Source: Synechococcus sp. PCC 7335
Lineage (GTDB): Bacteria > Cyanobacteriota > Cyanobacteriia > Phormidesmidales > Phormidesmidaceae
DNA length: 64,000 nt
Direction of reading: 5' to 3'
NCBI RefSeq assembly: GCF_000155595.1
Contig: NZ_DS989904.1
Location: 256,477-320,476, forward strand
Below the pieces are notes generated by a model. It did no database searches and was not told the DNA's origin. It saw only the letters and a program-made list of their open reading frames with translations. The translations under genes and the position numbers were made by a program. This document shows, piece by piece, positions 4,758-55,287 of the stretch. Numbering within the stretch: position 1 is the stretch's first letter; each line of letters opens with the position of its first letter.

Positions 4758-4780
4758 AGTGTGACGTTGTTCTCAAGGGG

Positions 4781-4804
4781 GTCAGAAAGTGGGTCAGAAG
4801 GTTA
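4781..4804. repeat. Two-copy 12-base tandem repeat between pump genes
   Basis: The unit GTCAGAAAGTGG is followed directly by GTCAGAAGGTTA in the spacer between the adaptor and transporter genes. It is one of many site-specific short tandem duplications in this window. Confidence 0.55.
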
Positions 4805-4860
4805 AAGTAGATCAGATAGCTAAGTGGACTAAGTAGACACAAGCTGTAAACTACTCAGCA

Positions 4861-11673: not shown

Positions 11674-11679
11674 AAGAGA

Positions 11680-12192: not shown

Positions 12193-12281
12193 TTCTCTTG
12201 CCTTCCTCTACTGCTAGCAACGCTTCAATTCTCGTACCGCTTTAGCTCATACATGTTTCGATTTAAGCTATCCGGCCCAAA

Positions 12282-12341
12282 GCCAGACTATTCGAAGCCA
12301 GACCATTCAAAGCCAGACTACTCAAAGTTAGACTGCTCAAA
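12282..12341. repeat. Four-copy 15-base tandem repeat across the radical SAM stop codon
   Basis: Units GCCAGACTATTCGAA, GCCAGACCATTCAAA, GCCAGACTACTCAAA and GTTAGACTGCTCAAA follow one another. The last copies encode the C-terminal residues SNFEQSNFE of the radical SAM protein on the minus strand. The TAG stop lies inside the third unit, and the remaining units are in the spacer. The length is a multiple of three, so expansion keeps the frame. Confidence 0.85.
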
Positions 12342-13469
12342 GTTAGAGAGAGCCGAGCAGGCCCCACATTTCGCACACCCTGCTTTCATCTCGCTAGATA
12401 ATAGATTCGCATCTCTCAGCATCTGTGCAATGCGCTGATAAAGCTCAAACATTAGTCCACTATCCGGTGGAGGCGTTTGTGCCAAGGGCGTGCCTACAAT
12501 CGGAACAAACGGCACTACAAATGGATAGACGCCTAACTGAATCAGTCGCTCACTCACCGAAAGCAAAGTATCCTTACTATCACCTAATCCTGCAAGCAAG
12601 TAAGTACTTACCTGTCCTCGACCAAAGACTTTGACAGCCGCCGAGAATGCTTCAAAATAGTAGCTAAGTGGCACCTTTGCCTTTCCGGGCATGATTCTTG
12701 CTCGAACTGTCGGATCTGCGGCTTCTAGATGCATTCCTAAGCTATCTATCCCAGCCGAGTGCATTCGATCAAACCATCGAAAATCATCGGGCGGCTCGCA
12801 CTGTGCCTGAATAGGCAAAGAGACTTTTGCTTTGATGGCTTGAGCACAGTCGGTTAGATAGGCGGCACCTCTATCTGTTGTATTTGGGGTGCCTGTCGTC
12901 ATAATCATGTGCTCTACCTGGTCAAGACGAACAGCAGCTTCAGCAACTTCGGCTAGTTGCTCAGGCGTTTTCTTAGCAATCGTGCGATCGCTTTCTAAAG
13001 ACTGACCAATCGCACAAAACTGACAGGCCGTTTTACGATTCTCGTATCGAATGCAGGCTTGCAAAACTGTTGTTGCTAGTACATTGTTGCTATGCAACAG
13101 CGCGATCTTCGAGTAGGGGATGCCATCAGCGGTGTGCAAACCGTAAAACTTAGGCTGACGTGGAAAGTCAAGCGGACTAATCACTTGATTGTTCTTTGCT
13201 AAATAAGACTGACCGGTTGAGGAATCAATATCTACTCGGTAGGGAGACTGGGCTGCACCATCAGTGTAAACAGGCACCATTACAGTTGTCCGGCCAATCG
13301 TTACCGCTTTATGATCAGAAGGACCCGCACCGCCTTTTCGTCCGGCTGCCCCTATCTCAGATGTCGCTAGGTTGAGCCCTCTAGATTGCAGGTCAGTAAT
13401 GATATGTTGTGCGTTTAATGGCTCAGCGGATAGCAGACTACTTCGCATGTAGGGAACTGATTTGGACAT
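12318..13469 (-). CDS. Radical SAM protein of the Nit1C cluster (Sll0785/MSMEG_0568 family)
   Basis: A 383-residue enzyme expected to bind a 4Fe-4S cluster and S-adenosylmethionine. The cluster Cys are C139, C149 and C152, spaced C-x9-C-x2-C rather than the classical C-x3-C-x2-C; to my knowledge this wider spacing is normal for this family. A TIM-barrel-like core follows (MIMTTGTPNTTDRGAAYLT; PIQAQCEPPDDFRWFD). A second Cys group, C365/C368/C371 (CAKCGAC), near the C-terminus could hold an auxiliary cluster. The last residues come from a 15-base tandem repeat. It is the third gene of the nit operon, 67 bases after the nitrilase gene. Its reaction is unknown. Confidence 0.9.
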   Translation of the reverse strand: MSKSVPYMRSSLLSAEPLNAQHIITDLQSRGLNLATSEIGAAGRKGGAGPSDHKAVTIGRTTVMVPVYTDGAAQSPYRVDIDSSTGQSYLAKNNQVISPLDFPRQPKFYGLHTADGIPYSKIALLHSNNVLATTVLQACIRYENRKTACQFCAIGQSLESDRTIAKKTPEQLAEVAEAAVRLDQVEHMIMTTGTPNTTDRGAAYLTDCAQAIKAKVSLPIQAQCEPPDDFRWFDRMHSAGIDSLGMHLEAADPTVRARIMPGKAKVPLSYYFEAFSAAVKVFGRGQVSTYLLAGLGDSKDTLLSVSERLIQLGVYPFVVPFVPIVGTPLAQTPPPDSGLMFELYQRIAQMLRDANLLSSEMKAGCAKCGACSALSNFEQSNFE

Positions 13470-13479
13470 AGGTCGACAA

Positions 13480-13520
13480 AATAATCTGAGAATAAATAGG
13501 AATAATCTGAGAATAAAGAA
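13480..13520. repeat. Two-copy 21-base tandem repeat upstream of the radical SAM gene
   Basis: AATAATCTGAGAATAAATAGG is followed immediately by AATAATCTGAGAATAAAGAA, between the nitrilase stop and the radical SAM start. It may alter the spacing between the two cistrons. Confidence 0.75.
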
Positions 13521-13536
13521 GAGACGCCTAGTTGAT

Positions 13537-14631
13537 TTAGTCGTTGCTCTTTGAAGAGAGCCGCTCTAGGCGACGGGTAGAAGAATCGGAACTATTTGAA
13601 GAAATAGGGATTCCAACAGAATAGTCAGCGTCTTCTTGAAGACCTTCAAGTCCTTCTACTGCAGAAGAGTCTAAAGGCTGCGAGTCCCTCTTCTCATGAG
13701 TAACCTGGTTGATAGCTGAGTAGGCAGATGTATTGATCTTGAGCTGGAGCAGATCGGGTCTCGCATAGTGACCCACAGAATCCATCATACGCTTACGTTT
13801 GGTGATCAAAGAGAAATCTAGGCTAGCGATCGCCATGCCCTCTCCTTCTCGAATCGGCTCTGCTAAATGGACCCCTTCCGGACTAATAATCGTCGTATAG
13901 CACCCACCTTGCAGTACCTTTTGTAACGCCTCAGTCGGCGCAATCTGTTCTACCTGCGCAGGCGATAGCCAGCCCGTCGAATTCACAACAAAACAGCCTG
14001 ACTCTAGAGCGTGATGACGCATTGTCACTTCAGTTTGTTCACTGAAAATATCACCCACCATTGAGCCAGGAAACTGGCCGCAGTGAATTTGTTCATGCCC
14101 TGTCATCAGACTATAGCGGGCAAGCGGATTGTAATGCTCCCAACAGGCCAACGTACCCAATCGTCCAACTGCTGTCTCACACACCTGCAACCCAGACCCA
14201 TCGCCCTGTCCCCATACCATCCGTTCGTGATAGGTCGGTGTTAGCTTCCGGCGCTTCAACACACACTCACCTGTTGCGTCGAAAACGAGCTGAGTGTTGT
14301 AAAGTGAGCCCTTATCCCTTTCGTTCACGCCTAGAACAATTACCATCTGATGTACGCGAGCTGCCTGACCAACTGCGTCAGTCACAGGACCCGGGACAAC
14401 TACTGCCTCCTCATAGAGTCTCATATGTTCTTTGCCCATCAGCACGGGCGGCAGCACAAAAGAGAAGTAAGGATAGTAAGGGATAAAGGTCTCAGGAAAA
14501 ACAATCAGATCTACGCCTTCTTTGGCAGCTTCACCAATCGCCTTGAGCACTTTTTCTACCGTACCCGACTGACTATGTAACACAGGTGAAAGCTGTACGG
14601 CGGCAGCTTTTACTGTTTTAGAGTAATCCAT
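13537..14631 (-). CDS. Nitrilase of the Nit1C cluster (Sll0784 family)
   Basis: A 364-residue carbon-nitrogen hydrolase that would convert a nitrile to the acid and ammonia. The catalytic triad is visible: Glu47 in VFPETFIP, Lys129 in [11 protein letters not shown] and Cys163 in [10 protein letters not shown]. Length and motifs fit true nitrilases rather than amidases. A Ser/Glu-rich tail of about 60 residues follows the fold. In other bacteria, Nit1C nitrilases have been linked to growth on cyanide or simple nitriles as nitrogen source; the physiological substrate here is not known. It is the second gene of the operon, with the Sll0783-family gene 105 bases upstream. Confidence 0.94.
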
Positions 14632-14736
14632 AGTAAATGCTGCTTAGTGAACAGGCTCTCTTGATAATTGTGGCGTTGCTTCTCTAACGTTAATACCCCT
14701 TCTACAGCGGACTAGAGTGGGTATTGAGCCACAGTC

Positions 14737-15219
14737 CTACATCGTCCAAGTATCTAATATAAACGCACCTTCTTTACGATGCATGAGTACGATATCTAAA
14801 ACATCTTTGGGGTTAATGGGCGTAATGCCAGGAATCAAAGAAGGCTCACCGTGCCCGTACAATGCCTGCAGCGCGAACCGACAGGCATAGACCTTAGCCC
14901 CATCTGCAATCACCTTTTCAACCCGATTGTTCATGGCCATATGTCCAGGGAAGGCCTCATCCCCCAACTTAGGAAAGCCGCGCTGTACACCTAGCGTTAC
15001 CCCAGGCCCGTACAACAATACAGAAGTCTCGAATCCTTTGCTAATCAGACGGCTAACTTGCAACAGATTCACTAGTCCAATAGAACCTTCAAACGCAACC
15101 GTATGAAAGGTTACTAGTGCCTTTTCGCCAGGTTCTGCCTGAACATCAGGAAATACTTTCTCTTCATAATCTACAAAAAAGTCACCACTCTGATGCGCTG
15201 GCGTTGTTACAGCTGGCAT
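14737..15219 (-). CDS. Sll0783/MSMEG_0572-family protein, first gene of the nit operon
   Basis: A 160-residue protein of the family that opens Nit1C clusters. The ATG at 15219 has GGGAG 9 bases upstream and lies about 22 bases after the predicted transcription start. The fold appears DsrE-like (alternating beta strands and helices: [50 protein letters not shown]). The Synechocystis homologue Sll0783 is known as a nitrogen-starvation-induced protein needed for normal polyhydroxybutyrate accumulation; its biochemical role is unresolved. A perfect NtcA-type promoter precedes it here. Confidence 0.9.
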
Positions 15220-15247
15220 ATGTCATTACTCCCAAATATCTGTCCAC

Positions 15248-15289
15248 ACCGTAAGTGGTCGAAGCACCTTTTCCAGTATCTATTGCTAC
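15248..15289 (-). promoter_or_regulatory. NtcA-activated promoter of the nit cluster
   Basis: On the minus strand GTAGCAATAGATAC (GTA-N8-TAC, 15289-15276) is followed by exactly 22 bases and then TACGGT (TAN3T, 15253-15248). This is the textbook class II NtcA promoter of cyanobacteria, centred near -41.5. Transcription would start near 15241, giving a leader of about 22 bases before the Sll0783-family ATG. Confidence 0.8.
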
Positions 15290-15563
15290 AGATAGATAGA
15301 GTCTGACTATTGAGACAGGACAAACTACTTCAAGATAGTCGCTTACGACTTATTGAAGACATCAGCCTGCACGAAAAGACAGGTAATTCTTCAAAGCGAC
15401 ACTGTTAAAAGAGTGAGGCTTTTCGATTCTGTAACGTCTGATACAAGGCTATTCTAAAGGTCTTTCTATGGTTGATAAATAGTCTTCAGTGAAATAATCT
15501 TTTCTGCTTCTATGGCATCTGTTTTGAGGTGCTTGTTCTCACACAGCGTTTGCCTAACTGCTT
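15290..15563. other. Rest of the divergent nit intergenic region
   Basis: This non-coding stretch lies between the NtcA promoter and the flavoprotein gene. I see no -10 box at the right distance from the NtcA box in the rightward direction and no clear sigma-70 promoter, so expression of the flavoprotein gene is unexplained. Confidence 0.45.
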
Positions 15564-16880
15564 ATGAGCTTATCAACGACTACGCACTATCCAGTTGTTA
15601 TTGTTGGCGGTGGCCAAGCAGGGCTATCTGTCAGCTACTGCCTAAAGCAGCGAGGCATTGAAAATATCATCTTTGAGAAGCATAGCGTTGCTCATTCTTG
15701 GGAAGCTAAGCGATGGGATTCTTTCTGTCTAGTTACGCCTAATTGGCAGTGCGTACTACCAGGGTATGCGTATTCAGGTGACGACCCTGATGGCTTCATG
15801 GGAAAGCGTAAGATTGTTCAATATGTTCAAGATTATGCCCAGTTTTTTGAAGCTAACATTAGAGAAGGGGTTGCGGTAGAGAAAGTTGAGGAAGAACCCA
15901 GCAATGCTGTTTTCAAGGTAACGACCTCGGCAGGAATATATACAGCTGATCAGGTTGTCGTTGCGACAGGTGGATATCATATTCCTAAGATTCCGACTAT
16001 AAGTGAGGCTTTACCTGAAAGTGTTTTACAGCTTCATTCTTCAGCATATAAGAAGCCAGCGGATCTACCGGCAGGAGATGTGCTAGTCGTAGGCACGGGT
16101 CAGTCGGGATGTCAGATTGCAGAAGATCTGCATCTAGCGGGTAGGCAGGTACATCTGTGTGTTGGTGGAGCACCGCGATCGCCCCGGCAATATAGAGGTA
16201 AAGATGTCGTCGAGTGGCTAGATCAGCTAGGCTACTACGACATTACTGTAGATGAACACCCGCAAAAGGAAGCCGTTCGGAAAAAGACAAATCACTATGT
16301 CACAGGGCGTGGCGGGGGTAGAGAGATCGATCTGCGGCAGTTTGCAACAGAAGGAATGCGACTCTACGGCAAACTGAAATCTATTGAGGGAACTCGGCTG
16401 ACTTTAAAAGACGATCTAAAAAAGAATCTTGATCAAGCAGATGAAGTAGCCGAAAGTATTAAAAGAACCATCGATCAGTACATAGAGAAGAACAACATAG
16501 AAGCTGTGGTTGATCCTCCCTATGAACCCGTGTGGCAACCGAATGACACACCGACCTTGATCGATCTTGAAGCCGCTGGCATCAATACCGTCATTTGGGC
16601 AACCGGCTATCATATGGATTTTAGCTGGATAGAGATTCCTGCGTTTGATGGGAAAGGCTACCCGACGCATCAGCGGGGTGTAACGACAGTAGAGGGGCTG
16701 TATTTTATTGGACTGCCCTGGCTGTACACCTGGGGGTCGGGGCGTTTTTCTGGGGTAGCTCACGATGCCGAGCACCTTGCTGACTGTATCGAACACTGCA
16801 TTGAGCTTAGACATCGTGGATTAAAACTCTCACAACCGGGTCGTTATGAGGCAATTAATGAAGTGGCGATTGGATCATAG
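15564..16880 (+). CDS. FAD-dependent oxidoreductase of the Nit1C cluster (MSMEG_0569 family)
   Basis: A 438-residue flavoprotein monooxygenase-like enzyme. The FAD-binding Rossmann motif is VVIVGGGQAGLSVSYCL (residues 10-26). A second dinucleotide-binding motif, VLVVGTGQSGCQIAEDL, near residue 175 probably binds NAD(P)H, and the ATG-type motif is seen in VVATGGYHIPKIP and WATGYHMDF. This arrangement resembles YUCCA/CzcO-like flavin monooxygenases. The family is characteristic of Nit1C clusters, where the substrate is unproven. It is transcribed away from the nit operon and converges on the LuxR-type gene, 47 bases from it. Confidence 0.9.
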   Translation: MSLSTTTHYPVVIVGGGQAGLSVSYCLKQRGIENIIFEKHSVAHSWEAKRWDSFCLVTPNWQCVLPGYAYSGDDPDGFMGKRKIVQYVQDYAQFFEANIREGVAVEKVEEEPSNAVFKVTTSAGIYTADQVVVATGGYHIPKIPTISEALPESVLQLHSSAYKKPADLPAGDVLVVGTGQSGCQIAEDLHLAGRQVHLCVGGAPRSPRQYRGKDVVEWLDQLGYYDITVDEHPQKEAVRKKTNHYVTGRGGGREIDLRQFATEGMRLYGKLKSIEGTRLTLKDDLKKNLDQADEVAESIKRTIDQYIEKNNIEAVVDPPYEPVWQPNDTPTLIDLEAAGINTVIWATGYHMDFSWIEIPAFDGKGYPTHQRGVTTVEGLYFIGLPWLYTWGSGRFSGVAHDAEHLADCIEHCIELRHRGLKLSQPGRYEAINEVAIGS

Positions 16881-41393: not shown

Positions 41394-41422
41394 CCTACTA
41401 CTTAGTTGCTTAGTAGGATTTT
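41394..41422 (+). terminator. Terminator after the M16 operon
   Basis: CCTACTA (41394-41400) pairs with TAGTAGG (41411-41417), followed by ATTTTT. It ends at the stop of the convergent putA gene. A perfect two-copy 13-base repeat (ACATAGTTCCAGC, 41365-41390) lies just before it. Confidence 0.6.
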
Positions 41423-44400
41423 TAATCCATGCCTTCAATGGGGGCAAAGCCCTGCCGCTGGACATTTTCTGTCACAGTGCGGGGATCAAGGAACTGCAGT
41501 AGATAGTCTGGGCCGCCTGCTTTGGAACCGACCCCAGAGAGTTTGAAGCCGCCAAAGGGTTGGCGAGCAACAATAGCACCGGTGATAGTGCGGTTGATGT
41601 ATAGATTGCCGACTTCGAAGTCGGCGTATGCTCGCTCAATATGAGAGGGAGTGCGAGAGTAGAGTCCACCCGTTAAGGCATAGTTGGTATTGTTAGCGAT
41701 CGCCAGTCCCGCTTCAAAACTGTCCGCCTTGATCACCGCTAGCACCGGTCCAAAGATTTCTTCTTGAGCAATCGTTGATTGGGGATCGACATCGGTAAAA
41801 ATCACTGGACCGACAAAATATCCAGGCTCAGGCGAAGGGAGTTCTAGTGCAAGCGTTGCCTCGGATTTGCCTTTCTCAATGTAGTCTCGAATCTGCTGCT
41901 GCGCAGCGGCATCAATCACTGGTCCTACTTTGGTACTCGGCAGAACCGCATCACCTACGTTCAAAGACTTTGTCGCTTCGATCACCCTGGCAACAAAAGT
42001 CTCGTAAATAGAAGCAACAACAATCACCCGAGAGCACGCAGAACACTTTTGTCCACTGTATCCAAAGGCAGAATACACAACGCCTTGAACGGCTTGATCA
42101 AGATCGGCGCTTTCGTCCACGATAATGGCGTTCTTACCCCCCATCTCCGCGACGACTCGCTTTAGGTGTTTCTGCCCTGGCTGCAAAATGGCCGCATCTG
42201 CATAGATTTGACAGCCCACTTCTTGTGAACCCGTGAACACAATCATGTGAACATCAGGATGCTTGACCATGTGCGATCCCACAGTTGATCCCCGCCCAGG
42301 GACGTATTGGAAAACCCCTTTAGGAATGCCCGCATCGACAAATATCTCGCTCAGCTTAGCCGCAATCACAGAAGTGACGGCTGCTGGCTTCAGCAGAGCA
42401 CAGTTGCCAGTAACTAATGCGGCAACGGTCATACCAGTTGGAATCGCTAGTGGAAAGTTCCAGGGAGAGATGACTAGCACGATGCCTTTGGGCCGATAGA
42501 AGTAGCGATCGCGCTCTCCTGCCACATCGTAGTCAATCTCTTGGTCTAGGCGCTCCATTTCGGCGGCGTAATACCGACAGAAATCCGCGGCCTCTGATAC
42601 TTCTGCATCTGCCTGCTGTAGAGGCTTTCCACCTTCTAATACCATCCAAGCATTCAGCTCATGACGACGCTCTTCTAGCAAATCCGCAGCCCGGTTAATA
42701 ATAGCCGCTCGCTCTTTTACAGGCGTACGCTTCCAAGTCTCAAAAGCCGTTTTAGCCGACGCGATCGCACTATTTGCCTGTTCAATATCGATTTGACCTA
42801 CCGTCCCTACCAACTGCGCTGGACGAGAAGGATTCACCGACTGAACTGTTTCAGAAGTCTGCACATACTCCCCGTCAATCAGGGGTCTGTAGGTTTTGCC
42901 AATCTGTTTTTGAATCGCTTCTAGAGCAGCATCAGCAGCGCTTCTTTTTTGAGCGACTGCGTAGTCTGTATCAGCAGCAGGATTGATTCGGGTCACAGGA
43001 GAATCCGACAGCGCGATTGGGGTCAGGCCGCTCGTACTATCAGCATCGCTATCGGCATCGCCTGGCCCCCACTGCGGAATCGCCAGTAGCTCCTCAGCAG
43101 GGCGCTCTTCCAAGTTTTGTCGCAAGAAGGAACTATTCGCCGTATTTTCTAGAAGGCGGCGAATTAGGTAAGCCATACCGGGAATCAGCTCACCATAGGG
43201 ACAGTAAACTCGGACACGATGACCTTGTTTTACCAGCGCGTTTGCAAGGCTATCGGCCATGCCGTACAGCACTTGAAACTCGACATTGCGAGCAGGAATA
43301 TCAAGCGTTTGGGTGATCGCCATAGCCAGCGCTTGCGATCGCACGTTATGGCTACCAATAGCTGCATACAGATACTGATGATTCTCTAACAGCAGCCGAG
43401 TCATCCGCTCGAAGTTGGCATCGGTCGAAGATTTGTGATTGTAAACTGGCGTCGGCCAGTAGTTCTGCCGCGCTGTGATGGTTTCTTGATCCCAATAGGC
43501 GCCTTTAACTAGACGCAGCGTGATAGGGGTTCCTCGGCTTTTGGCCCATCCAATGAGATCTTCAAGGTCGCGATAGCTATCGCGTAAGTATGCCTGTAGC
43601 GTCATGCCAATATCAGAGCGAGAGCGGAACTCTTCTTCCATCAGAAGCTGCTTTAAAGCCGCTAGCGTTGCGTCCTTGTAGCGATACTGCTCCATATCAA
43701 AGTGAACAGCCACACCCAACGCTTCGGCTCTGCGTAACAGCGTCCGAACGCGTTCACCAACTTTGGCTTTAGAGCCTTCTACATCTAGCGGATCAAACTG
43801 AGAGTAAAAGGCCGTTAGCTTGACAGAGACCTGCACTTTTGCCAAAGGCTTTCCTTCAGCAGCATCTAGCTTAGCAACGGGTTTCCAGCTTTCAGCGGCC
43901 TCGGTAAGCTGCGCCATCAGCTCTAAATACTGATTCAAATAAGCTTCGGCTTCGCGCTCGGTAACGACTGCCTCACCTAGCAAATCCATTGTGAACGCCA
44001 TAGACTGCTTTCGCAGTTGCTCAATACTCTTGAGTGCCTGTTTGATATTCTCACCAGCAATATACTTACGAGCGAGTGTCTCTACCGCTCCAGATAGGGT
44101 CGTAGCAGCCACCTGTGCGGGCATAGAGTTAGGATCTGCGAAGTTGAGCAGACTCTTTAGCGCCTGGGGTAGCTCTACGCTGGCATCACCTAAATACTCT
44201 TGAAAATGGCTAGCGATTTCGGCCTTAGTCGTCAGTGCTGGTAAACAGTCGATCAGACGAAACATCTGCACTCGCAGGCCCGGATTCTCCATCGTCCAAG
44301 CTAGCAGCTTGTCATCCCACCGAAGCTGATCACGCATCTTGGTGACAACGGACGAGAAAAGCGATCCCTTGCCTCGGCTATCAGATAATAGCTGACGCGC

Positions 44401-44475
44401 GATCGCCTGAGTTTTTTCTTCATAATCAGCCTGGGCCGAAGACTCTGTAACCGCGCGAGATGCATTGATAACCAT
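41422..44475 (-). CDS. putA: Bifunctional proline dehydrogenase / glutamate-semialdehyde dehydrogenase (PutA-like)
   Basis: A 1017-residue two-step enzyme oxidising proline to glutamate. The N-terminal half is the FAD-linked proline dehydrogenase barrel (VSVKLTAFYSQFDPLDVEGS; TLRLVKGAYWDQE; YLYAAIGSHNVRS). The C-terminal half is the aldehyde dehydrogenase, with Glu in VAEMGGKNAIIVDES and the catalytic Cys in YSGQKCSACSRVIV. There is no DNA-binding domain, so this PutA is not its own repressor. The ATG at 44475 follows TAGGAGAG; the longer frame to 44541 is unlikely. An NtcA-type promoter lies upstream, and cphA and cphB precede it on the same strand. Proline made from cyanophycin arginine is its likely substrate. 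Confidence 0.94.
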   Translation of the reverse strand: MVINASRAVTESSAQADYEEKTQAIARQLLSDSRGKGSLFSSVVTKMRDQLRWDDKLLAWTMENPGLRVQMFRLIDCLPALTTKAEIASHFQEYLGDASVELPQALKSLLNFADPNSMPAQVAATTLSGAVETLARKYIAGENIKQALKSIEQLRKQSMAFTMDLLGEAVVTEREAEAYLNQYLELMAQLTEAAESWKPVAKLDAAEGKPLAKVQVSVKLTAFYSQFDPLDVEGSKAKVGERVRTLLRRAEALGVAVHFDMEQYRYKDATLAALKQLLMEEEFRSRSDIGMTLQAYLRDSYRDLEDLIGWAKSRGTPITLRLVKGAYWDQETITARQNYWPTPVYNHKSSTDANFERMTRLLLENHQYLYAAIGSHNVRSQALAMAITQTLDIPARNVEFQVLYGMADSLANALVKQGHRVRVYCPYGELIPGMAYLIRRLLENTANSSFLRQNLEERPAEELLAIPQWGPGDADSDADSTSGLTPIALSDSPVTRINPAADTDYAVAQKRSAADAALEAIQKQIGKTYRPLIDGEYVQTSETVQSVNPSRPAQLVGTVGQIDIEQANSAIASAKTAFETWKRTPVKERAAIINRAADLLEERRHELNAWMVLEGGKPLQQADAEVSEAADFCRYYAAEMERLDQEIDYDVAGERDRYFYRPKGIVLVISPWNFPLAIPTGMTVAALVTGNCALLKPAAVTSVIAAKLSEIFVDAGIPKGVFQYVPGRGSTVGSHMVKHPDVHMIVFTGSQEVGCQIYADAAILQPGQKHLKRVVAEMGGKNAIIVDESADLDQAVQGVVYSAFGYSGQKCSACSRVIVVASIYETFVARVIEATKSLNVGDAVLPSTKVGPVIDAAAQQQIRDYIEKGKSEATLALELPSPEPGYFVGPVIFTDVDPQSTIAQEEIFGPVLAVIKADSFEAGLAIANNTNYALTGGLYSRTPSHIERAYADFEVGNLYINRTITGAIVARQPFGGFKLSGVGSKAGGPDYLLQFLDPRTVTENVQRQGFAPIEGMD

Positions 44476-44613
44476 TAAAACTCTCCTACCGCTCTCAACT
44501 AAGTTAAGAGCACTAAAGCTAAAGAAAGCACCTAAACCCAAACAGCTTCAGCAACCTGATTACTGGAAATCGGTGCTGCTAGCGGCGAATTCTAAAAGCC
44601 GCTGTAATACGCA
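44476..44613 (-). other. Leader of putA
   Basis: These are about 130 bases between the predicted putA transcription start (near 44607) and its ATG. The sequence has no gene and no recognised riboswitch. Confidence 0.4.
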
Positions 44614-44656
44614 ACTATAGCAAAAGTCACGCAAACAAGACTGTAGAGGTAAGTAC
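44614..44656 (-). promoter_or_regulatory. NtcA-activated promoter of putA
   Basis: On the minus strand GTACTTACCTCTAC (44656-44643) fits GTA-N8-TAC. After 23 bases comes TATAGT (44619-44614), which fits both TAN3T and the -10 consensus. This spacing is that of class II NtcA promoters. Confidence 0.75.
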
Positions 44657-44861
44657 AGTAACAGCGCTTAGAACCGACACGAGCTAAAGGAAACGTTTCC
44701 TACAACTATTGCCTACAACTAGGGAAAGACCTTCAAACTAATAGCGTAGGGGAAGACAGACCAGCTTCGTCTAAATCCAAGCCGAAAGCTGGCAAAGCCG
44801 AACGCTTGGTAGTTTCTAGTAGCGTACCGATTATCGATGAAAACTATGGGCTAGAAAAAGG

Positions 44862-47639
44862 CTACAAAATAGAAGAAGCAGTCGCACCGTTAAAGAGCTG
44901 AAGCTCTTTTCTAGAAGTATTATCTAGATCTTCGGCAGGCTCTGCCCCTGAAGTGTCAGAATCCGACTTCAAAATTGGCCCAGATGAATTGGCGGGGCTA
45001 AATCCTTCAGAAACGGGACCTTTTGCCGAAATCAAGGAAATCGCTCGACTGATACTTTCTGGCAAAATCACCACTAGGCAATTGTCCGGCGCGCTGTCTA
45101 AAGCATGGTTAACGGCTTCAGATTCATCTAGCTCAATGTGATAGGAAAAGTCAGTAGAACGCTGGCTCTCATCGGTCTGAAGAATCCCTTGTTCAATCAG
45201 CGCTGCCACCGCCCCCGGTGAGCGACCGCGTCTATCTTTATCTTCTTTGATAATGACTTGATCGAAGATATCGACCGAGAGCTGACCTAGCTCAATGAGA
45301 TCTTCATCTCGGCGATCGCCCGGTGCACCAACAACCCCAATCGCAGGGCCTGGCCAGTTCTTCACAAAGCTGCCGATCGCCGCATAGCCAGCTGGATTGT
45401 GTGCGTAGTCCACAAGTGCGTGATAGTTGCCCATATCGAACAAATTCATCCGCCCTGGAATCTGGCTAGCCGATGGCTGAAAACTATGCAAGGCTGCTCG
45501 AATCTGTTCAATCTTCACGCCTTGGACGAAACCAGCCAAACTAGCCGCTAACGCATTAGCGATCATGAAAGGCGCACGTCCGCCCATCGTCAATGGCACC
45601 CTCTCGGCCTTGATAATGCGATGCAGCCAATCCTGCTGAATAATCGAGAGATAACCCTCCTCATACACAGCAGCGATACCACCATTGGCAAGATGCGATC
45701 GCACCAAAGGATTCTTTGAATCCATCGAGAAATAGGCTACCTTTGCAGCCTTCACCCGCTCTGCCATCGCAGCTACTCGGTGATCGTCCGCGTTCAGAAC
45801 CACATAGCCACTGCCAGCAACCGACTCAGCAACTACCGCCTTCAACTTTGCTAGCTGGTCGATCGTATCAATGTCTCCGATACCCAAGTGATCCGCTGCT
45901 ACGTTTAGCACAATACCCACATCGCTTTGATCGAAGGCAAGCCCAGAACGGAGCAGCCCTCCCCTAGCGGTCTCTAATACAGCCATCTCGACTGTGGGAT
46001 CTTCTAAGATCAACCGCGCGCTCTGTGGACCAGTCGTATCGCCCTTTTCAACTAAGTGATTACCAATATAGATACCGTCAGTCGTCGTGTAGCCGACCAT
46101 ACTGTAGACCTGGCGGAAAATATGCGCCGTTAACCGAGTTGTCGTTGTCTTTCCGTTCGTTCCAGTAATCGCCACAATTGGAATTCGACTGGGCTGATCA
46201 GGCGGTATCAGCATATCCAAGATAGGTGCGCCAACGTTACGAGCAAGTCCCTGACTAGGCGAAACATGCATCCGCAAACCAGGCGCGGCATTCACTTCGA
46301 CAATTACGCCATCAGCTACCGCCAGGGTCTTAGAAATATCTGTTGTCACCACATCAATGCCCGCCACATCTAGACCCAGCAACCGAGCCGCTCGCTCGGC
46401 GATCCAAATCGTCTCTGGGTGAATCTCGTCGGTTCGATCGATAGCAATGCCACCGGTGCTCAAATTTGCAGTCGCCCTTAGATAGCAAATCTCGCCTTTT
46501 CTAAGCACGGTATCTAGGTTGTAGCCCTGAGACTCCATTAGCTGATCGCTTGTTCGATCCAGCCTAATTTGAGTCAGGAGATTATCATGGCCTTCGCCCC
46601 GACGCGGATCTTGGTTCTCGCGATCAACTAACGCCTCAATCGTATCGATCCCATTGCCCACGACATGAGCAGGTACCCGCTCAGCCACTGCCACCATCTT
46701 GTTATCAACTACTAGAATGCGATGATCTCGGCCCTGATAGTGATGTTCAACAATCACGCCATCAGAGACCTGACGAGCTAAATCGTAGGCGGCTTCTGCC
46801 TGCTCCCAAGAACTGATGTTTAGAGTTATTCCCCGGCCGTGGTTACCATCTAGCGGTTTGACCACAATCGGATAGCCTCCCAAATAATCGAGCGACTCTT
46901 CAAGTTCACGCAGAGAATAGACCACGGTTCCTTTGGGAACCGGAATACCCGCATTGCCCAACATCCGCTTGGTCGCTTCCTTATCACAGGCAAGCTCCAC
47001 ACTCAAGATATTGCTGTGGGAAGTCAGCGATGCCTGCACTCGCTTTTGATGGACGCCGTAGCCAAACTGCAACAGATTGCGAACGTCTAGCTCTAGCCAA
47101 GGAACGTTTCGTGCTTCGGCCGCACGCACCAAAGCTTCAGTGCTAGGTCCTAGAGCAGCAGCGGCACGCAACTCCTTTAGGTCTTCCAGGTCTTTGCGAA
47201 TTTCGGAGTCTGGATAAAAGCCAGTTTCGATAATGCTCTCACACAACCTCAAAGCGGCTCTAGCTGCATAGCGCCCAGCAGCCTCATTCTCGTATTGGAA
47301 AACAACCTGATACACACCTGGATCAGAGGTCTCCCGAGTACGACCAAACCCAACTCGCATACCAGCTAGTGTCTGCAGTTCTAAAGCAACGTGCTCGACG
47401 ATATGACCCATCATCGTGCCAGTCTGCAGCCGACTAAGAAACCCACCCCGCACGCCCGGAGAGCAGAAATGCTCTACAAGGCTAGGCAAAGCTGAAACTA
47501 GACCATCGTAGAAACCATCGATAGTATCTGAAGGGCGCTCAGCGAGATCTTCTAAATCAAGGCGAACGACAATTAGCTTCCCATATCGAATACTCCAATA
47601 ATTTGGTCCGCGCAGCGTCTGAGTTTTAAGAACTTTCAT
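44862..47639 (-). CDS. cphA: Cyanophycin synthetase
   Basis: A 925-residue enzyme that builds the arginine-aspartate storage polymer from ATP, Arg and Asp. The N-terminus MKVLKTQTLRGPNYWSIRYG is diagnostic. An ATP-grasp domain (about residues 220-480: VVKPLDGNHGRGITLN; VIVEVNAAPGLRMH) adds Asp, and a Mur-ligase-like domain (P-loop ITGTNGKTTTTRL near residue 492; LVDYAHNPAGY) adds Arg. About 55 extra residues, Ser/Glu-rich, follow the usual end. cphB lies upstream on the same strand and putA downstream. Confidence 0.98.
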   Translation of the reverse strand: MKVLKTQTLRGPNYWSIRYGKLIVVRLDLEDLAERPSDTIDGFYDGLVSALPSLVEHFCSPGVRGGFLSRLQTGTMMGHIVEHVALELQTLAGMRVGFGRTRETSDPGVYQVVFQYENEAAGRYAARAALRLCESIIETGFYPDSEIRKDLEDLKELRAAAALGPSTEALVRAAEARNVPWLELDVRNLLQFGYGVHQKRVQASLTSHSNILSVELACDKEATKRMLGNAGIPVPKGTVVYSLRELEESLDYLGGYPIVVKPLDGNHGRGITLNISSWEQAEAAYDLARQVSDGVIVEHHYQGRDHRILVVDNKMVAVAERVPAHVVGNGIDTIEALVDRENQDPRRGEGHDNLLTQIRLDRTSDQLMESQGYNLDTVLRKGEICYLRATANLSTGGIAIDRTDEIHPETIWIAERAARLLGLDVAGIDVVTTDISKTLAVADGVIVEVNAAPGLRMHVSPSQGLARNVGAPILDMLIPPDQPSRIPIVAITGTNGKTTTTRLTAHIFRQVYSMVGYTTTDGIYIGNHLVEKGDTTGPQSARLILEDPTVEMAVLETARGGLLRSGLAFDQSDVGIVLNVAADHLGIGDIDTIDQLAKLKAVVAESVAGSGYVVLNADDHRVAAMAERVKAAKVAYFSMDSKNPLVRSHLANGGIAAVYEEGYLSIIQQDWLHRIIKAERVPLTMGGRAPFMIANALAASLAGFVQGVKIEQIRAALHSFQPSASQIPGRMNLFDMGNYHALVDYAHNPAGYAAIGSFVKNWPGPAIGVVGAPGDRRDEDLIELGQLSVDIFDQVIIKEDKDRRGRSPGAVAALIEQGILQTDESQRSTDFSYHIELDESEAVNHALDSAPDNCLVVILPESISRAISLISAKGPVSEGFSPANSSGPILKSDSDTSGAEPAEDLDNTSRKELQLFNGATASSIL

Positions 47640-48117
47640 GGTGGCAGGTGTGTTGAACCGGGTCGGCAGAAACTGAAGCTTGATACGCTTAGGAAAACTA
47701 AATAAAACTTAGCTTAAGCTAATAGCATTTTATACGCTCTCTGACCTCCGCCCCAACAGACTTAAGTAACGGAGATCCTCTTATTTGGTAGGTTTGCGAG
47801 GTTACTTAAAAAGAACTAGCAGTCAACCCAGGGCAAACTGAGCGTTTAACTAAGCGACTACTATCAAATGAAATTGATGTATTAACCAATATTGTTGCTT
47901 TGAGCTTAGGGCTTAGAAACAGTATCCTCGATATTCCTATGTTTTTATCCCTTATTTTCTGACAGTGGTTCCCTAATGACGGTCTTTTTACGGGTGCGTG
48001 GATAGAAGATTGAAACTTATTAGGTATAACCATTTAGGTATAGGGTTATCAGACGTCTGAAGCTAGCTGAATAATCCTGATTACTTCTTCAAGTTGAATC
48101 AACTCAACTTTACCAAC
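47640..48117. other. cphB-cphA spacer with inverted repeat
   Basis: A 478-base spacer. TTAAGTAAC at 47762-47770 and GTTACTTAA at 47801-47809 form a perfect 9-base inverted repeat around 30 bases. The 75-codon frame at 47806-48033 has no recognisable features. Only a one-mismatch NtcA-like sequence (GTATTAACCAATAT) is seen, near 47878. cphA may use its own promoter or be read from cphB. Confidence 0.5.
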
Positions 48118-48984
48118 TCAACTCCAATCAGCTTTGCTTTGAAGCTGCATCAGTGCGCGGGCTTTATAGTCATAGCGATCGCCTTGATTGAGCACATGTA
48201 CCTTGAGATTGTGCAAACTCAGCGGGGACGTCTCTAGACTTTCAGGATAGCTAGTATGAGTTAAATTGCCAGGATCTATCACGGTGATTGTGCCTTTACC
48301 CAGGACTTGAAAAATGCCGTCGTTAGCAATGGCTATGCAGGTGTCTTCGTCGATACCCACGCCTAGTCTATTGGGATGAGCAGCGATCGCACTCAACAAG
48401 CGTGCCATCCGATTGCGATTGTGAAAGTGCTGATCGACTAGCAATTCGGGCACAAACCCCAATCCATCTGTCAAATCTACTAAGCTCTGATTAGGAGACT
48501 CACCGCTACTACCGCCTGCGATCATCTGCTCACCCATGACGGCTGCGCCCGCACTGGTACCGGCTAGTACAAGTTCAGACTTGGCGAGCTTCTCTTTGAT
48601 TAGCTGCAAAAGGCGAGTGCCCCCGATTAGATCGCGTAGTCTAAGCTGATCCCCACCAGTAATAAATATTCCACTACAGTCGTTCAACACTTCTATCCAA
48701 CGCGCCTCCTCGCACTCACTGCGATAGCGGATGTCTAGGATCTGCACCCGCAGGGCGCCCATTGCTGTGAAGAGCTGGTAGTATCTATCACCAACAATGG
48801 CTGGTTCCCTAGATGCAGATGGAATAATACCGATAGTCGCGTCGCTTCCGCCTGCGCTTTTAACAAATGCGTTTAATATAGTGCATCCGTTAGTCTTGTC
48901 TTCTGCCCCGCCAATGATCATCACTGGGTACTGGGTAGAAACTGTCATAGGCTTGTGAGCTAAAAGTGGTTGCACTTCCAGCAT
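48118..48984 (-). CDS. cphB: Cyanophycinase
   Basis: A 288-residue S51-family serine peptidase that cleaves cyanophycin to beta-Asp-Arg dipeptides. The nucleophile is in LAGTSAGAAVMGEQM (near residue 160). Other family segments are VMIIGGAEDK, GIFITGGDQLRL, LLVDQHFHNRNRMARL and GVGIDEDTCIAI. The ATG at 48984 is preceded by GAGGA; the in-frame TTG at 49014 is less likely. It is the first gene of the minus-strand cphB-cphA-putA series and has an NtcA-type promoter upstream. Confidence 0.97.
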   Translation of the reverse strand: MLEVQPLLAHKPMTVSTQYPVMIIGGAEDKTNGCTILNAFVKSAGGSDATIGIIPSASREPAIVGDRYYQLFTAMGALRVQILDIRYRSECEEARWIEVLNDCSGIFITGGDQLRLRDLIGGTRLLQLIKEKLAKSELVLAGTSAGAAVMGEQMIAGGSSGESPNQSLVDLTDGLGFVPELLVDQHFHNRNRMARLLSAIAAHPNRLGVGIDEDTCIAIANDGIFQVLGKGTITVIDPGNLTHTSYPESLETSPLSLHNLKVHVLNQGDRYDYKARALMQLQSKADWS

Positions 48985-49158
48985 AGAGCTATCCTCGCTA
49001 TTTATTAAAGGCAATTACCATAAAAGCCTTAGCTATCGCAACGTGTATGGCATGATGCGAGCCAGATCGCAGTGCGATTTGGATCAGGTCAGAACCCGCA
49101 TCATCAGGCAACGCTTTTAGTCTGTGTGAAAACAATCAAGACCTTTCGCTCAACATTT

Positions 49159-49201
49159 AACTTATCAATAGCAATCATCTAATATTTGTATCTCAGGCTA
49201 C
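49159..49201 (-). promoter_or_regulatory. NtcA-activated promoter of cphB
   Basis: On the minus strand GTAGCCTGAGATAC (49201-49188) fits GTA-N8-TAC and is followed by 23 bases and TAAGTT (TAN3T, 49164-49159). The predicted start near 49152 leaves a leader of about 165 bases before cphB. No -10 box fits in the opposite direction. Confidence 0.65.
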
Positions 49202-49321: not shown

Positions 49322-49600
49322 ATGAGCAAAGCAGACATTAACCAGTCCATAGAAGCGCTTCGAGCCGAGTTAGACAAAGTTGCAACAACTGATATCGCTG
49401 CTAAGGATAAGCTGCTCGCGCTGATAACTGATGTCGAAAGACAGCTGCAAGAACCTGATAAGGAAGTTGATAGCGAAGGGAGCAGAAAGGCTACCCTACA
49501 GCAGTTGCCAGCGCTAATTGAGCAGTTTGAAGCCGATCATCCGAAAGTGACGAATACGCTAGGTCGATTGCTCAATACGCTCAGCAGTATGGGCATATAA
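49322..49600 (+). CDS. DUF4404 family small protein
   Basis: A 92-residue, mostly helical, acidic protein matching the DUF4404 pattern (SIEALRAELDKVATTDIAAK; IEQFEADHPKVTNTLGRLLN). It has no signal peptide or membrane segment. The function is unknown; family members occur in diverse bacteria as small helical-hairpin proteins. It is transcribed away from cphB and converges with the GMC oxidoreductase gene. Confidence 0.8.
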   Translation: MSKADINQSIEALRAELDKVATTDIAAKDKLLALITDVERQLQEPDKEVDSEGSRKATLQQLPALIEQFEADHPKVTNTLGRLLNTLSSMGI

Positions 49601-51447: not shown

Positions 51448-52458
51448 ATGCTTACCCACTTAGATGCGATAGGAATGCCAAAGCGTTCAGATGATCGGTT
51501 TGTATCTGTAATCGTACCCGTGTTTAATGATGCGGCGCGACTACGCCTGTGTCTACAGGCACTTGCAGCACAAACTTATGGAGCTTATGGAGAGGGCGCT
51601 CAAGCAGAAGGTGGCCAAGTAGAAGGCCATCAGGTCGATCGAAAGGCTGATTACGAGGTAATCGTAGTAGACAACGCTTCGGCAGCGAGTGAGAACATTT
51701 CGGATGTGGTCGCTGAGTTTCCTTGCGCTGTCTATGCCTACGAGTCATTACCTGGCTCTTATGCTGCGCGCAATCGCGGGGTGGCCTTGGCAAAAGGCGA
51801 TATTCTGGCGTTTACTGATGCTGATTGTATCCCTGCAAAAGATTGGATAGAAAAGGGTGTTAGCTATCTCATCAAGAGTCCTCACTGCGGATTGGTTGCC
51901 GGTCAAATCAAATTGTTTTTTCGAGGGGCTAAGGCAAATCCAATAGAGCTGTACGAAAGTGTGACTGCGTTCCCGCAGCAGCGATTGCTAGAGCAGCAGA
52001 AAGGAGCTGCGACAGCCAATGTTTTCACTTTTAGCTCGGTGATGGATGAAGTCGGCCCATTCAATGCTGAGCTGCGTTCTCAAGGCGATCTAGAGTGGGG
52101 ACAGCGAGTGTTTGCAGCGGGTTATCAACAGCTTTATGCAGCGGATGTGTGTGTGTCTCACCCGGCTAGATACACGCTTCAACAGTTACACCACCGAACA
52201 CTTCGCCTAGCAGGCGGTTCCTTCGGCCGGCTTATTCGGCCCGAGCAAAGTGTTTTACAGCGCAATTGGACATTCACTAAGATGCTCTTAGCCGATTTGA
52301 TACCACCTGTCAATTTTGCGATTAGTGCTTTTAGAGACGATCGGCTACGCGGTTTTGGGCAAAAGTCAGTAGTGCCATTGGTGCTTGTGTGGGTGCGCTG
52401 TGTCAGTGCAGTTGAAAAGGCACGGCTGAAATTTGGCGGAGTTCCGCATCGCGGTTAG
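51448..52458 (+). CDS. Glycosyltransferase family 2
   Basis: A 336-residue GT-A enzyme. The nucleotide-sugar site is shown by VSVIVPVFNDAARLRLCLQA (near residue 19), VIVVDNASA, and the metal-binding Asp triplet in ILAFTDADCIPA. The C-terminal segment (SQGDLEWGQRVFAAGYQ) holds the general-base region. A Gly/Gln/Glu-rich insert (about residues 49-70) between the first strand-helix unit and the second strand looks like repeat-derived sequence. It starts the exopolysaccharide or glycolipid operon, and the next gene begins 28 bases after its stop. Confidence 0.9.
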   Translation: MLTHLDAIGMPKRSDDRFVSVIVPVFNDAARLRLCLQALAAQTYGAYGEGAQAEGGQVEGHQVDRKADYEVIVVDNASAASENISDVVAEFPCAVYAYESLPGSYAARNRGVALAKGDILAFTDADCIPAKDWIEKGVSYLIKSPHCGLVAGQIKLFFRGAKANPIELYESVTAFPQQRLLEQQKGAATANVFTFSSVMDEVGPFNAELRSQGDLEWGQRVFAAGYQQLYAADVCVSHPARYTLQQLHHRTLRLAGGSFGRLIRPEQSVLQRNWTFTKMLLADLIPPVNFAISAFRDDRLRGFGQKSVVPLVLVWVRCVSAVEKARLKFGGVPHRG

Positions 52459-52486
52459 AGGAAGCAAGCGGCATGGACGAGAGGTA

Positions 52487-53776
52487 ATGGACAAGAAGCT
52501 AAAGGTTGCGTTTGTCGTTCACGAGTTTCCAGTCCTATCGGAGACATTTATTATCAATCAAGCAACGGGTCTGATCGACAGAGGCTGCGAAGTTGATATC
52601 TACACTGACCGCTTGGGTGATACCGATAAGGTGCATCCAGATATACATCGATATGACTTACTAGATCGCACTCGGGTACTACCAGCTGTGCCCCAAAACT
52701 ATGCGGTACGAGTGATAAAGGCGATCGCAATCATTGCTAAACACGGCTACCGATATCCTAGGAAAGTAGCGCGATCGCTCAACGTTTTCCGTCGAGGCAT
52801 TCGAGCTGCCTCCCTATGGTCACTATTTACCGAACTGCCTCCATTAGATCTGCCTAGTTACGACATCATCCATGCTCAGTTTGGCAATCTCGGCTTTAGG
52901 TCGCTGCTATTGAAAGATCTCAGTAAGGATGCGCGGTTAGTCGTGATGTTTCGCGGGTTTGACATCTCTCAGCAGGTGCAGGCGAACGGCCCGAATGTCT
53001 ACAGCTCGCTGTTCAAACAGGCGGACTTCTTTTTGACCAACTGTGATTTCTTTCGACAAAGGCTACTGGCCCTAGGCTGTTCGCCCGACAAGATAAGAGT
53101 CCATTATTCTGGCTTAGACTGTAGCAAGTTTACGCCGAGCGCGCGATCTAAATCGTCTTCAGAAAAAGTTCGGATTGCGGCCACCGGTCGACTGGTCGAA
53201 AAGAAGGGATTTGAATACAGTATCCGAGCAGTCGCAAAAGTAGCAGAACGCTACCCCCATATCACGTTTGACATCATCGGCGATGGGCCTTTGCGGAATG
53301 AGCTATCGGCCTTAATTAAGTCGTTGAATATGCGAGAAACCATTCATCTTCTAGGCTGGCGAGATGAACAAGAAATTATTGATATATTGACGCGATCGCA
53401 TTTGTTTGTAGCGCCTAGCGTGACGGCTGCTAAGGGTAATCAGGATGCGCCAATCAACGTACTTAAAGAGGCAATGGCGTTAGGCTTACCGGTAGTAAGT
53501 ACCACCCATGGAGGCATTCCAGAACTGGTAGAAGATGGCATCTCTGGTTTCTTGGTGCCAGAGCGGGATGCGACTGCGATCGCCCATGCCCTCACTACCT
53601 TGATAGAGCATCCAGAACGCTGGGCAGGTATGGGAGCAGCAGGCCGGTCCTATGTAGAAACTCACTACAACCTGGATTTGCTCAACGATAGGCTACTAGA
53701 GCTTTATCACCAGCTATTGGCAGGTCCGATAGAAGGGCCTAAGCAGAGTTTACCCTCCGTAGTTCCTGCTACTTAG
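52487..53776 (+). CDS. Glycosyltransferase family 4, paralogue 1
   Basis: A 429-residue GT-B enzyme. The N-terminal acceptor domain opens with KVAFVVHEFPVLSETFIINQ, the pattern of colanic-acid WcaL/Lsg-type GT4 enzymes. The C-terminal GT4 domain begins at VRIAATGRLVEKKGFEYSIR and holds the nucleotide-sugar-binding segment DAPINVLKEAMALGLPVVST and HGGIPELVEDG. The next gene is a close paralogue in the same order of motifs. The start chosen is the ATG at 52487; the longer frame to 52433 overlaps the preceding gene. Confidence 0.93.
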   Translation: MDKKLKVAFVVHEFPVLSETFIINQATGLIDRGCEVDIYTDRLGDTDKVHPDIHRYDLLDRTRVLPAVPQNYAVRVIKAIAIIAKHGYRYPRKVARSLNVFRRGIRAASLWSLFTELPPLDLPSYDIIHAQFGNLGFRSLLLKDLSKDARLVVMFRGFDISQQVQANGPNVYSSLFKQADFFLTNCDFFRQRLLALGCSPDKIRVHYSGLDCSKFTPSARSKSSSEKVRIAATGRLVEKKGFEYSIRAVAKVAERYPHITFDIIGDGPLRNELSALIKSLNMRETIHLLGWRDEQEIIDILTRSHLFVAPSVTAAKGNQDAPINVLKEAMALGLPVVSTTHGGIPELVEDGISGFLVPERDATAIAHALTTLIEHPERWAGMGAAGRSYVETHYNLDLLNDRLLELYHQLLAGPIEGPKQSLPSVVPAT

Positions 53777-53794
53777 TTCCTATTCAGTTGAGTT

Positions 53795-53818
53795 CTTGTC
53801 TAACTACTTGTCTAACTA
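53795..53818. repeat. Perfect two-copy 12-base tandem repeat
   Basis: CTTGTCTAACTA is repeated at once in the spacer between the two GT4 paralogues. Confidence 0.75.
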
Positions 53819-53973
53819 GATAATTTTTGACTAGATATAATTTCTAACTAAGCGCTCTCCAGACAGCTCCGTAGAGACGATGACTATCTTCCTAGCTTCT
53901 CAAGCTATGTCCATTTTCCTAGTATTTCTCGCCCAAGCTCAAACCATATTCAAAGTAGTCGTAAGGTAAGCAG

Positions 53974-55287
53974 ATGTCTGAAAAGTTGAGAATTGCTTTT
54001 GTGGTTGGCCAGTTTCCGATGCTGTCTGAAACATTTGTGATGAATCAAGCGACAGGACTATTAGCACGAGGCCACGAAGTTGATATCTACACCGAGCAGC
54101 TATGCGATACCAGTAGCGTGCATCCCGATGTCACTCGATATAACCTTTTAGAGCGTACGTACGTTCTGCCTCCTGTGCCAGATAACTATCTGCTGCGATT
54201 GGGGAAAGGGGTAGGGCTAGTGGCAAAGCATATCTACCGACACCCAAAACAGACTTTGCAATCACTCAACGTCTTTCGCTACGGAATGCAAGTAGCCTCT
54301 CTACGAATGCTCTTTGCGAACGTGCCGCGTTCTAATCCTATCCCTTACGACATTATTCACGCCCAGTTCGGAACGTTGGGCTTTCGGGGGCTGCTATTGC
54401 GAGAGCTGAACCGAGGATCGCGCTTGATTGTGATGTTTCGCGGATCTGATATCAGCCAGTGGGTCAAATCTCAAGGCGACCATGTATACGATACGCTCTT
54501 TAGCCAGGCAGACTACTTTCTAACAAACTGCGATTTCTTCAGGCAGAAGTTATTGGCACTAGGGTGTCCATCCGATAGGTTGAAAGTCCATTATTCTGGA
54601 CTAGACTGTAGCAAATTCCAGCCTGTGCTTCGGCGGCTAGATGCGTCTGACAAGATTCGGATTGCAGCAACAGGTCGCTTGGTTGAGAAAAAAGGATTTG
54701 AATACTGTATTCGCGCTGTCGCAAAAGTCGCGAAGCAATATCCTCAAATCACCTTTGATATTATGGGCGACGGGCCGCTTCATCAAACACTGGCCAAACT
54801 CATCGAATCCTTACAGATGACCGAGGTCATCCACCTTCGGGGCTGGCAAAATGAGGAAGAGATTATTGATACGCTCGCTCGTGCCCATCTATTCGTAGCG
54901 CCTAGTGTGACTGCCTCTAATGGCAATCAAGATGCCCCTATCAACGTTCTTAAAGAGGCGATGGCACTGGGGCTACCGGTAGTCAGTACCTATCATGGTG
55001 GCATTCCTGAACTAGTAGAAGATGGCGTTTCTGGTCTGCTAGTGCCTGAGCGAGATGCCGATGCGATCGCTCAGGCACTTACGACTCTAATAGAGCACCC
55101 AGAACGTTGGCCGGATATGGGAAAGGCAGGTCGAGCCTATGTAGAAGCCCACTACAACTTAAGTGCACTAAACGATCGGTTAGTCACCATTTATCAGCAG
55201 CTAAAAGCAGGCCCAGCTGGTGATCAGCCTTCAAATGCTGAGCCCAACGAACAAACTGCTACCCATATTGGACCAGTGTTAGGTTAG
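53974..55287 (+). CDS. Glycosyltransferase family 4, paralogue 2
   Basis: A 437-residue GT-B enzyme, colinear with the product of 52487-53776 over almost its entire length. They share MFRG-DIS, FLTNCDFFRQ, VHYSGLDCSKF, RIAATGRLVEKKGFEY and DAPINVLKEAMALGLPVVST. This shows a local gene duplication followed by divergence, mainly in the N-terminal acceptor half. The two probably add related sugars in successive steps. It has its own 197-base upstream spacer. Confidence 0.93.
   Translation: MSEKLRIAFVVGQFPMLSETFVMNQATGLLARGHEVDIYTEQLCDTSSVHPDVTRYNLLERTYVLPPVPDNYLLRLGKGVGLVAKHIYRHPKQTLQSLNVFRYGMQVASLRMLFANVPRSNPIPYDIIHAQFGTLGFRGLLLRELNRGSRLIVMFRGSDISQWVKSQGDHVYDTLFSQADYFLTNCDFFRQKLLALGCPSDRLKVHYSGLDCSKFQPVLRRLDASDKIRIAATGRLVEKKGFEYCIRAVAKVAKQYPQITFDIMGDGPLHQTLAKLIESLQMTEVIHLRGWQNEEEIIDTLARAHLFVAPSVTASNGNQDAPINVLKEAMALGLPVVSTYHGGIPELVEDGVSGLLVPERDADAIAQALTTLIEHPERWPDMGKAGRAYVEAHYNLSALNDRLVTIYQQLKAGPAGDQPSNAEPNEQTATHIGPVLG

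Follow-up and report, generated by a model that had tools for sequence, protein, structure and literature searches.

The 64,000-nucleotide stretch analyzed here (the window) lies on contig NZ_DS989904.1 of Synechococcus sp. PCC 7335, the genome under study (G000), with window position p corresponding to position 256476 + p of G000:C1; other genomes and loci are cited by handle (G and L, respectively). It carries, all on the minus strand and transcribed in the order cphB, cphA, putA, three intact open reading frames for a cyanophycinase, a cyanophycin synthetase and a bifunctional proline-oxidizing enzyme, and nothing suggests that any of them is a pseudogene (Table 1). The first-pass annotation had described them as a nitrogen-controlled storage and breakdown cassette, and the order and common direction that it claimed are borne out, with all three families over curated cut-offs; the span that it gave (44614-49201) takes in both promoter regions, cphA and cphB, and putA lies outside it. 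CphB belongs to the cyanophycinases by TIGR02069 (302 bits, cut-off 126.6), matches the solved cyanophycinase 3en0 over nearly its whole length (phmmer E 1.9e-88) and retains the GTSAGAA motif, the Ser of which we take to be the nucleophile. CphA is of the CphA1 type by TIGR02068 (1208 bits, cut-off 850), has its N-terminal, ATP-grasp and Mur-ligase domains on one chain and aligns through residues 1-879 with the solved CphA 7lg5. PutA fuses the Pfam domains PutA_N, Pro_dh and Aldedh in one protein and belongs to TIGR01237 (776 bits, cut-off 660), while the equivalog model NF008869 falls under its cut-off (685 vs 747); an ATG equivalent to that at 44475 is present in 10 of the 12 loci compared.

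Table 1. Coordinates of the features discussed (window positions unless a contig or locus is named).
Feature	Position	Strand	Evidence or remark
Predicted NtcA-activated-type promoter of cphB, GTAN8TAC - 23 nt - TAAGTT	49159..49201	minus	exact match, conserved
cphB, cyanophycinase (288 amino acids from ATG 48984; a TTG would lengthen the frame to 49014)	48118..48984	minus	TIGR02069, Peptidase_S51
cphA, cyanophycin synthetase (925 amino acids)	44862..47639	minus	TIGR02068; CphA 7lg5 alignment
cphA-putA intergenic region, 386 bp	44476..44861	minus	no terminator-like site on minus strand
NtcA-type consensus match at putA, GTAN8TAC - 23 nt - TATAGT; doubtful as functional site	44614..44656	minus	exact match, unconserved
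putA, bifunctional proline dehydrogenase / glutamate-semialdehyde dehydrogenase	41422..44475 (ATG; TTG frame to 44541)	minus	PutA_N, Pro_dh, Aldedh; TIGR01237
agrE	G000:C1:333725-335875	opposite to iaaA and Y	starts 28 kb beyond cphB
iaaA, beta-aspartyl-peptidase	L018:8676-9620	opposite to agrE	Asparaginase_2, PF01112
Gene Y, uncharacterised	L018:9645-11294 (G000:C1, outside window)	opposite to agrE	between iaaA and agrE; PF01841
Gene for a DUF4404 protein, facing away from cphB with the NtcA-site region between them	49322..49600	plus	PF14357

Adjacency of the three genes is retained among close relatives. In a set of 38 relatives, some of them fragmented, cphB-cphA-putA on one strand was found in all seven genomes of the genus (G000-G006) and in G032, and in none of the remaining 30. 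Across a draw of 145 genomes of the class, cphA and putA are both present in 116; their starts lie no more than 6 kb apart in eight of these (G000, G001, G003, G006, G032, G065, G097 and G041) and 10-18 kb apart in three further class genomes. Among the nearest 80 putA loci in named genomes, some of them on short contigs with little flank, cphA stands beside putA in seven: Phormidesmis LEGE 11477, Leptolyngbya BC1307, P. priestleyi Ana, ULC027bin1 and a Pseudanabaenaceae metagenome-assembled genome (identical to G032), followed by such assemblies of Chamaesiphon (L028) and Synechococcales (L046). In a PutA tree of 60 rows (quick method, LG+G4), every row with this gene order except G041 falls within one 16-row clade, with a Shimodaira-Hasegawa-like approximate likelihood-ratio test (SH-aLRT) support of 100; the 16 rows represent 15 distinct genomes or contigs, with the genes adjacent in 12, not adjacent in two and cut by a contig end in one. 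The PutA of G041 branches far from that clade, outside which only G041 has a comparably close cluster. Because all adjacent cases other than G041 share the one PutA clade, the adjacency is real but clade-bound, with one origin in the PutA tree and some later break-ups, and the G041 cluster was assembled independently. Adjacency thus held on inspection of the relatives, being kept throughout the genus and in its nearest kin (G032, G065, G097, L028 and L046), but to speak of a cassette for cyanobacteria at large is too strong.

Sites resembling NtcA-activated promoters had been claimed at both cphB and putA, and both are present letter for letter as quoted: GTAGCCTGAGATAC-N23-TAAGTT at 49201..49159, ahead of cphB, and GTACTTACCTCTAC-N23-TATAGT at 44656..44614, ahead of putA. 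The part of the claim that concerns cphB stands. The site there takes the common form GTN8ATACAAA followed by TTGNTANNNT, where GTN10AC and TAN3T are separated by 23 nt, in all eight close genomes (the genus and G032), most of which carry it as GTN10AC and not as the strict GTAN8TAC. In leave-one-out scoring, partly circular because the sites were chosen by a pattern seen beforehand, no shuffle of 300 scored better in seven of these genomes and six of 300 did in G000. Out of sample, the site is present in G065 and G078 (0/300 shuffles each), which brings it to 10 of the 16 genomes tested, and it is a conserved, predicted NtcA-activated promoter. At putA the match is equally exact, and it is confined to G000 among the genomes scanned, so that coordinated NtcA control of putA through a promoter of its own, as the first-pass annotation had it, is not upheld. 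Upstream of cphA no match like the cphB site was found, and NtcA control of that gene is not proposed. As a separate observation, GTAN8TAC alone occurs 23 times in the whole window, where shuffles lead one to expect 9.2 and none of 100 was as high.

An enzyme of the ArgZ/AgrE type, which the first-pass annotation had suggested looking for as the link from arginine to proline, is encoded in G000 and joins the cph cluster in relatives. It scores 1320 bits against NF052231 bifunc_ArgZ (cut-off 1025), is also over the cut-offs of NF052232 and TIGR00300, matches the solved Alr4995 of Anabaena (6lrf) with 1194 bits, and combines an N-terminal dihydrolase with a C-terminal ornithine cyclodeaminase. 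Its gene forms a block with iaaA and an uncharacterised gene, Y, that recurs in G001, G002, G003, G005, G006, G032, G065, G078 and G079, with pieces of it at contig ends in G004. In L028 the genes agrE (3785-5881), cphB (to 6824), cphA (to 9983) and putA (from ~10004) are consecutive, and the same four are consecutive in L046, with Y divergent. G032 has cphB-cphA-putA and, past two unrelated genes, iaaA, Y and agrE, all inside 17 kb; G008 has agrE, Y, cphA and cphB inside 12 kb, with putA far off; and in G041 a putA-agrE unit is divergent from cphB-cphA. The position of agrE 28 kb from cphB in G000 is not claimed as a remnant of linkage, because two loci in 6 Mb will fall within 30 kb of each other by chance in ~1% of cases; G001 has agrE and the cph genes on two long contigs. 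NtcA control of agrE is likewise not claimed, as L046 alone gave a scoring site (1/300 shuffles) and its motif is poor.

Taken together, these observations make it probable that the locus serves cyanophycin turnover as a unit, to which the last step of arginine breakdown has been added. With activities predicted from family membership, CphA would build the polymer and CphB would cleave it to beta-Asp-Arg; the dipeptide would be cleaved by IaaA, encoded elsewhere in G000, AgrE would convert the arginine to proline with release of ammonium and CO2, and PutA would oxidize proline to glutamate. The sequence arginine to proline by AgrE and proline to glutamate by PutA is stated in PMC8262935, and cleavage of the beta-Asp-Arg released by cyanophycinase by a plant-type asparaginase / isoaspartyl dipeptidase is given in passages of PMC4234267. 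Under nitrogen limitation NtcA would turn the unit on through the conserved site upstream of cphB, while cphA and putA would be transcribed by read-through from the cphB promoter, from promoters of their own or in both ways. Clustering would have arisen twice, in a Phormidesmis/Leptolyngbya-type clade and in the G041 lineage, and we propose that it did so because the gene products act in sequence.

How putA would come under this control can be answered in two ways. It may be that cphB and putA are each activated by NtcA, the putA site being a recent and real gain in G000; the match is an exact GTAN8TAC-N23-TAN3T, the window holds six strict matches where Markov simulations predict 1.2-1.5 (~4-5 fold over expectation), and two others of the six belong to the divergent promoter region of the Nit1C-type nitrogen-starvation cluster described below. 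Against this, the strict site was found upstream of putA in 0/7 other clade genomes and in 0/77 other putA loci (0.6 expected; three of the 80 had less than 150 bp upstream), even G002, with a PutA 92% identical, lacks it, and since 0.4% of random 350-bp windows hold a strict match, a single one carries little weight when many upstream regions are considered. A conserved NtcA promoter belonging to putA is rejected on this lack of conservation, and activation of both genes by way of a recent gain, retained because the match is exact, is doubtful. Expression of putA with cphB by read-through is more likely, because the putA site is unconserved, the gap in front of putA has no terminator-like site and that gap is 23 bp in L028. 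Over 12 clade loci the gap ranges from 23 to 386 bp (59 bp in L046); in G000 no terminator-like site was found on its minus strand, so read-through is possible there. Among relatives the gaps are too diverged for an alignment to reveal a shared element.

Several observations weigh against the reading of the locus as a turnover unit. The 386 bp between cphA and putA in G000 is long for an operon; six of the 16 genomes tested (G097, G079, L028, L046, G008 and G041) gave no cphB site, among them G097, L028 and L046, where the cluster is present; agrE and iaaA lie 24-30 kb from the cph genes in G000 and on separate contigs from them in G001-G006; and adjacency is broken up inside the clade in L030 and L027 (identical to G078), and is therefore not essential. 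A rival reading has the three genes as stable neighbours by descent only, with putA under an NtcA-independent promoter and serving mainly proline turnover (as osmolyte or from exogenous proline), uncoupled from cyanophycin. The lack of a conserved NtcA site at putA and the long gap in G000 would fit such an arrangement, as would the four of 120 putA-bearing class genomes in which cphA is absent and the fact that most cyanobacteria hold cphA and putA apart. Descent alone is nevertheless improbable, given that adjacency outlasts divergence of PutA to ~72-82% identity and turnover of the surrounding genes, and that agrE joins the cluster in L028 and L046 and again in G041, which a chance neighbourhood does not predict.

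The protein encoded between iaaA and agrE, Y, was rated more surprising than the gene cluster. Intact copies in the clade are 549-602 amino acids long and match Transglut_core (PF01841; 71.6 bits, cut-off 23), and Cys458, His501, Glu517 and Asp521 (numbered as in the L024 copy) are invariant in all 24 homologues, in keeping with a Cys-His-acid triad. The N-terminus is strand-rich with propeller-like repeats, an assignment of low confidence for which a fold search returning propellers is only a hint; AlphaFold models from two-row alignments (mean predicted local distance difference test scores of 47 and 40) are too weak to place the four residues. No NCBIfam model matched Y, and the PDB yielded no close solved structure, only a marginal match to a transglutaminase (E 0.00078). 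In the 145 class genomes Y and cphA are both present in 116 and both absent from 25, with Y only in two (G031 and G155) and cphA only in two (G062 and G066), an agreement of 141/145 (Fisher 1.5e-23, uncorrected for kinship); Y is discordant with agrE in six of the 145 and with putA in eight. Of the 25 genomes of family f1 that occur in either draw, 20 have both, five (G013, G014, G017, G021 and G099) have neither and none is discordant (Fisher 1.9e-5, also uncorrected); genus-mates of G021 and G099 keep both genes, which implies at least two recent co-losses. A control gene, TIGR04044, is discordant with cphA in five of 23 f1 genomes, where Y is discordant in none of the same 23. In distant lineages Y lies near cphA, at ~45 bp (match coordinates) in G091, 1.3 kb in G089 and 2.2 kb in G034. 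Since the comparison draws on a single control gene and not on a species tree, the tie of Y to cyanophycin is a lead and not proof, and it is tentatively, at slightly less than even weight, that we suggest an unrecognised core protein of cyanophycin turnover, either a granule-associated hydrolase or an activator or processing enzyme of CphA or CphB. Such a protein might be retained by every cyanophycin maker, with its gene clustered beside iaaA and agrE in the clade and beside cphA in lineages far from it, which we hold to be just as tentative. A role in arginine catabolism is less likely, G014, G076 and G120 having agrE and putA and neither cphA nor Y. Judged by title and the start of the abstract, none of the papers found to mention both cyanophycin and transglutaminase has a Y-like protein as its subject.

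Some further features were recorded. The DUF4404 gene is divergent from cphB in all seven genomes of the genus, with the NtcA site in their common intergenic region. The nitrogen-starvation cluster (10684-16880) encodes an sll0787-like AIR protein, an MSMEG_0567 acetyltransferase, an MSMEG_0568 radical SAM protein, a Nit6803 nitrilase, MSMEG_0572/Sll0783 and an MSMEG_0569 flavoprotein, and the strict NtcA-type sites in its divergent promoter region lie at 15289..15248 (minus) and 15431..15472 (plus). G097, which has cphB-cphA-putA, also has a second, diverged cphA-like match (G097:C57:50829-52772) 12 kb from its iaaA-Y pair, and two cphA matches occur in several genomes of family f16 (G037, G055, G068, G081, G102, G113 and G122). 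At 52433-55287 two similar, consecutive glycosyltransferase frames of 447 and 437 amino acids are an apparent tandem duplication.

For many cyanobacteria the main nitrogen reserve is cyanophycin, which is also a candidate biopolymer; the enzymes that take its arginine to glutamate were discovered piecemeal. The clade described here offers genetic support for AgrE-PutA as the route that cyanophycin arginine takes and a compact locus for study or engineering, and flags Y as an apparent member of the system. No description of agrE, cphB, cphA and putA clustering together was found in the literature searched, which included few subscription papers and passages of PMC2242806, PMC4234267 and PMC12930504. 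The enzymes and the reaction chain from cyanophycin through beta-Asp-Arg, arginine and proline to glutamate are already known, and the gene clustering appears to be new. As in the AgrE/ArgZ-PutA pathway (Burnat 2019, Zhang 2018, as in PMC8262935), the same enzymes act in the same order; that account is of chemistry without gene clustering, whereas the loci described here show physical linkage of these genes with those for cyanophycin. IaaA resembles the plant-type asparaginase / isoaspartyl dipeptidase (PF01112) to which passages of PMC4234267 assign beta-Asp-Arg cleavage. Unlike the PF01112 enzymes described, its gene has Y next to it and is divergent from agrE. As in cph1-type operons, the cyanophycinase and cyanophycin synthetase genes come in that order on the same strand, but the G000 locus is extended downstream by putA, and L028 and L046 also upstream by agrE. 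The cyanobacterial cphB-cphA operon of this type is reportedly nitrogen regulated (Picossi et al. 2004, cited in PMC4234267). Y shares with the transglutaminase-like superfamily (PF01841) a domain with Cys458 and His501, and differs from it in its propeller-like N-terminus and in having Glu517 at the acid position, where the superfamily usually has Asp.

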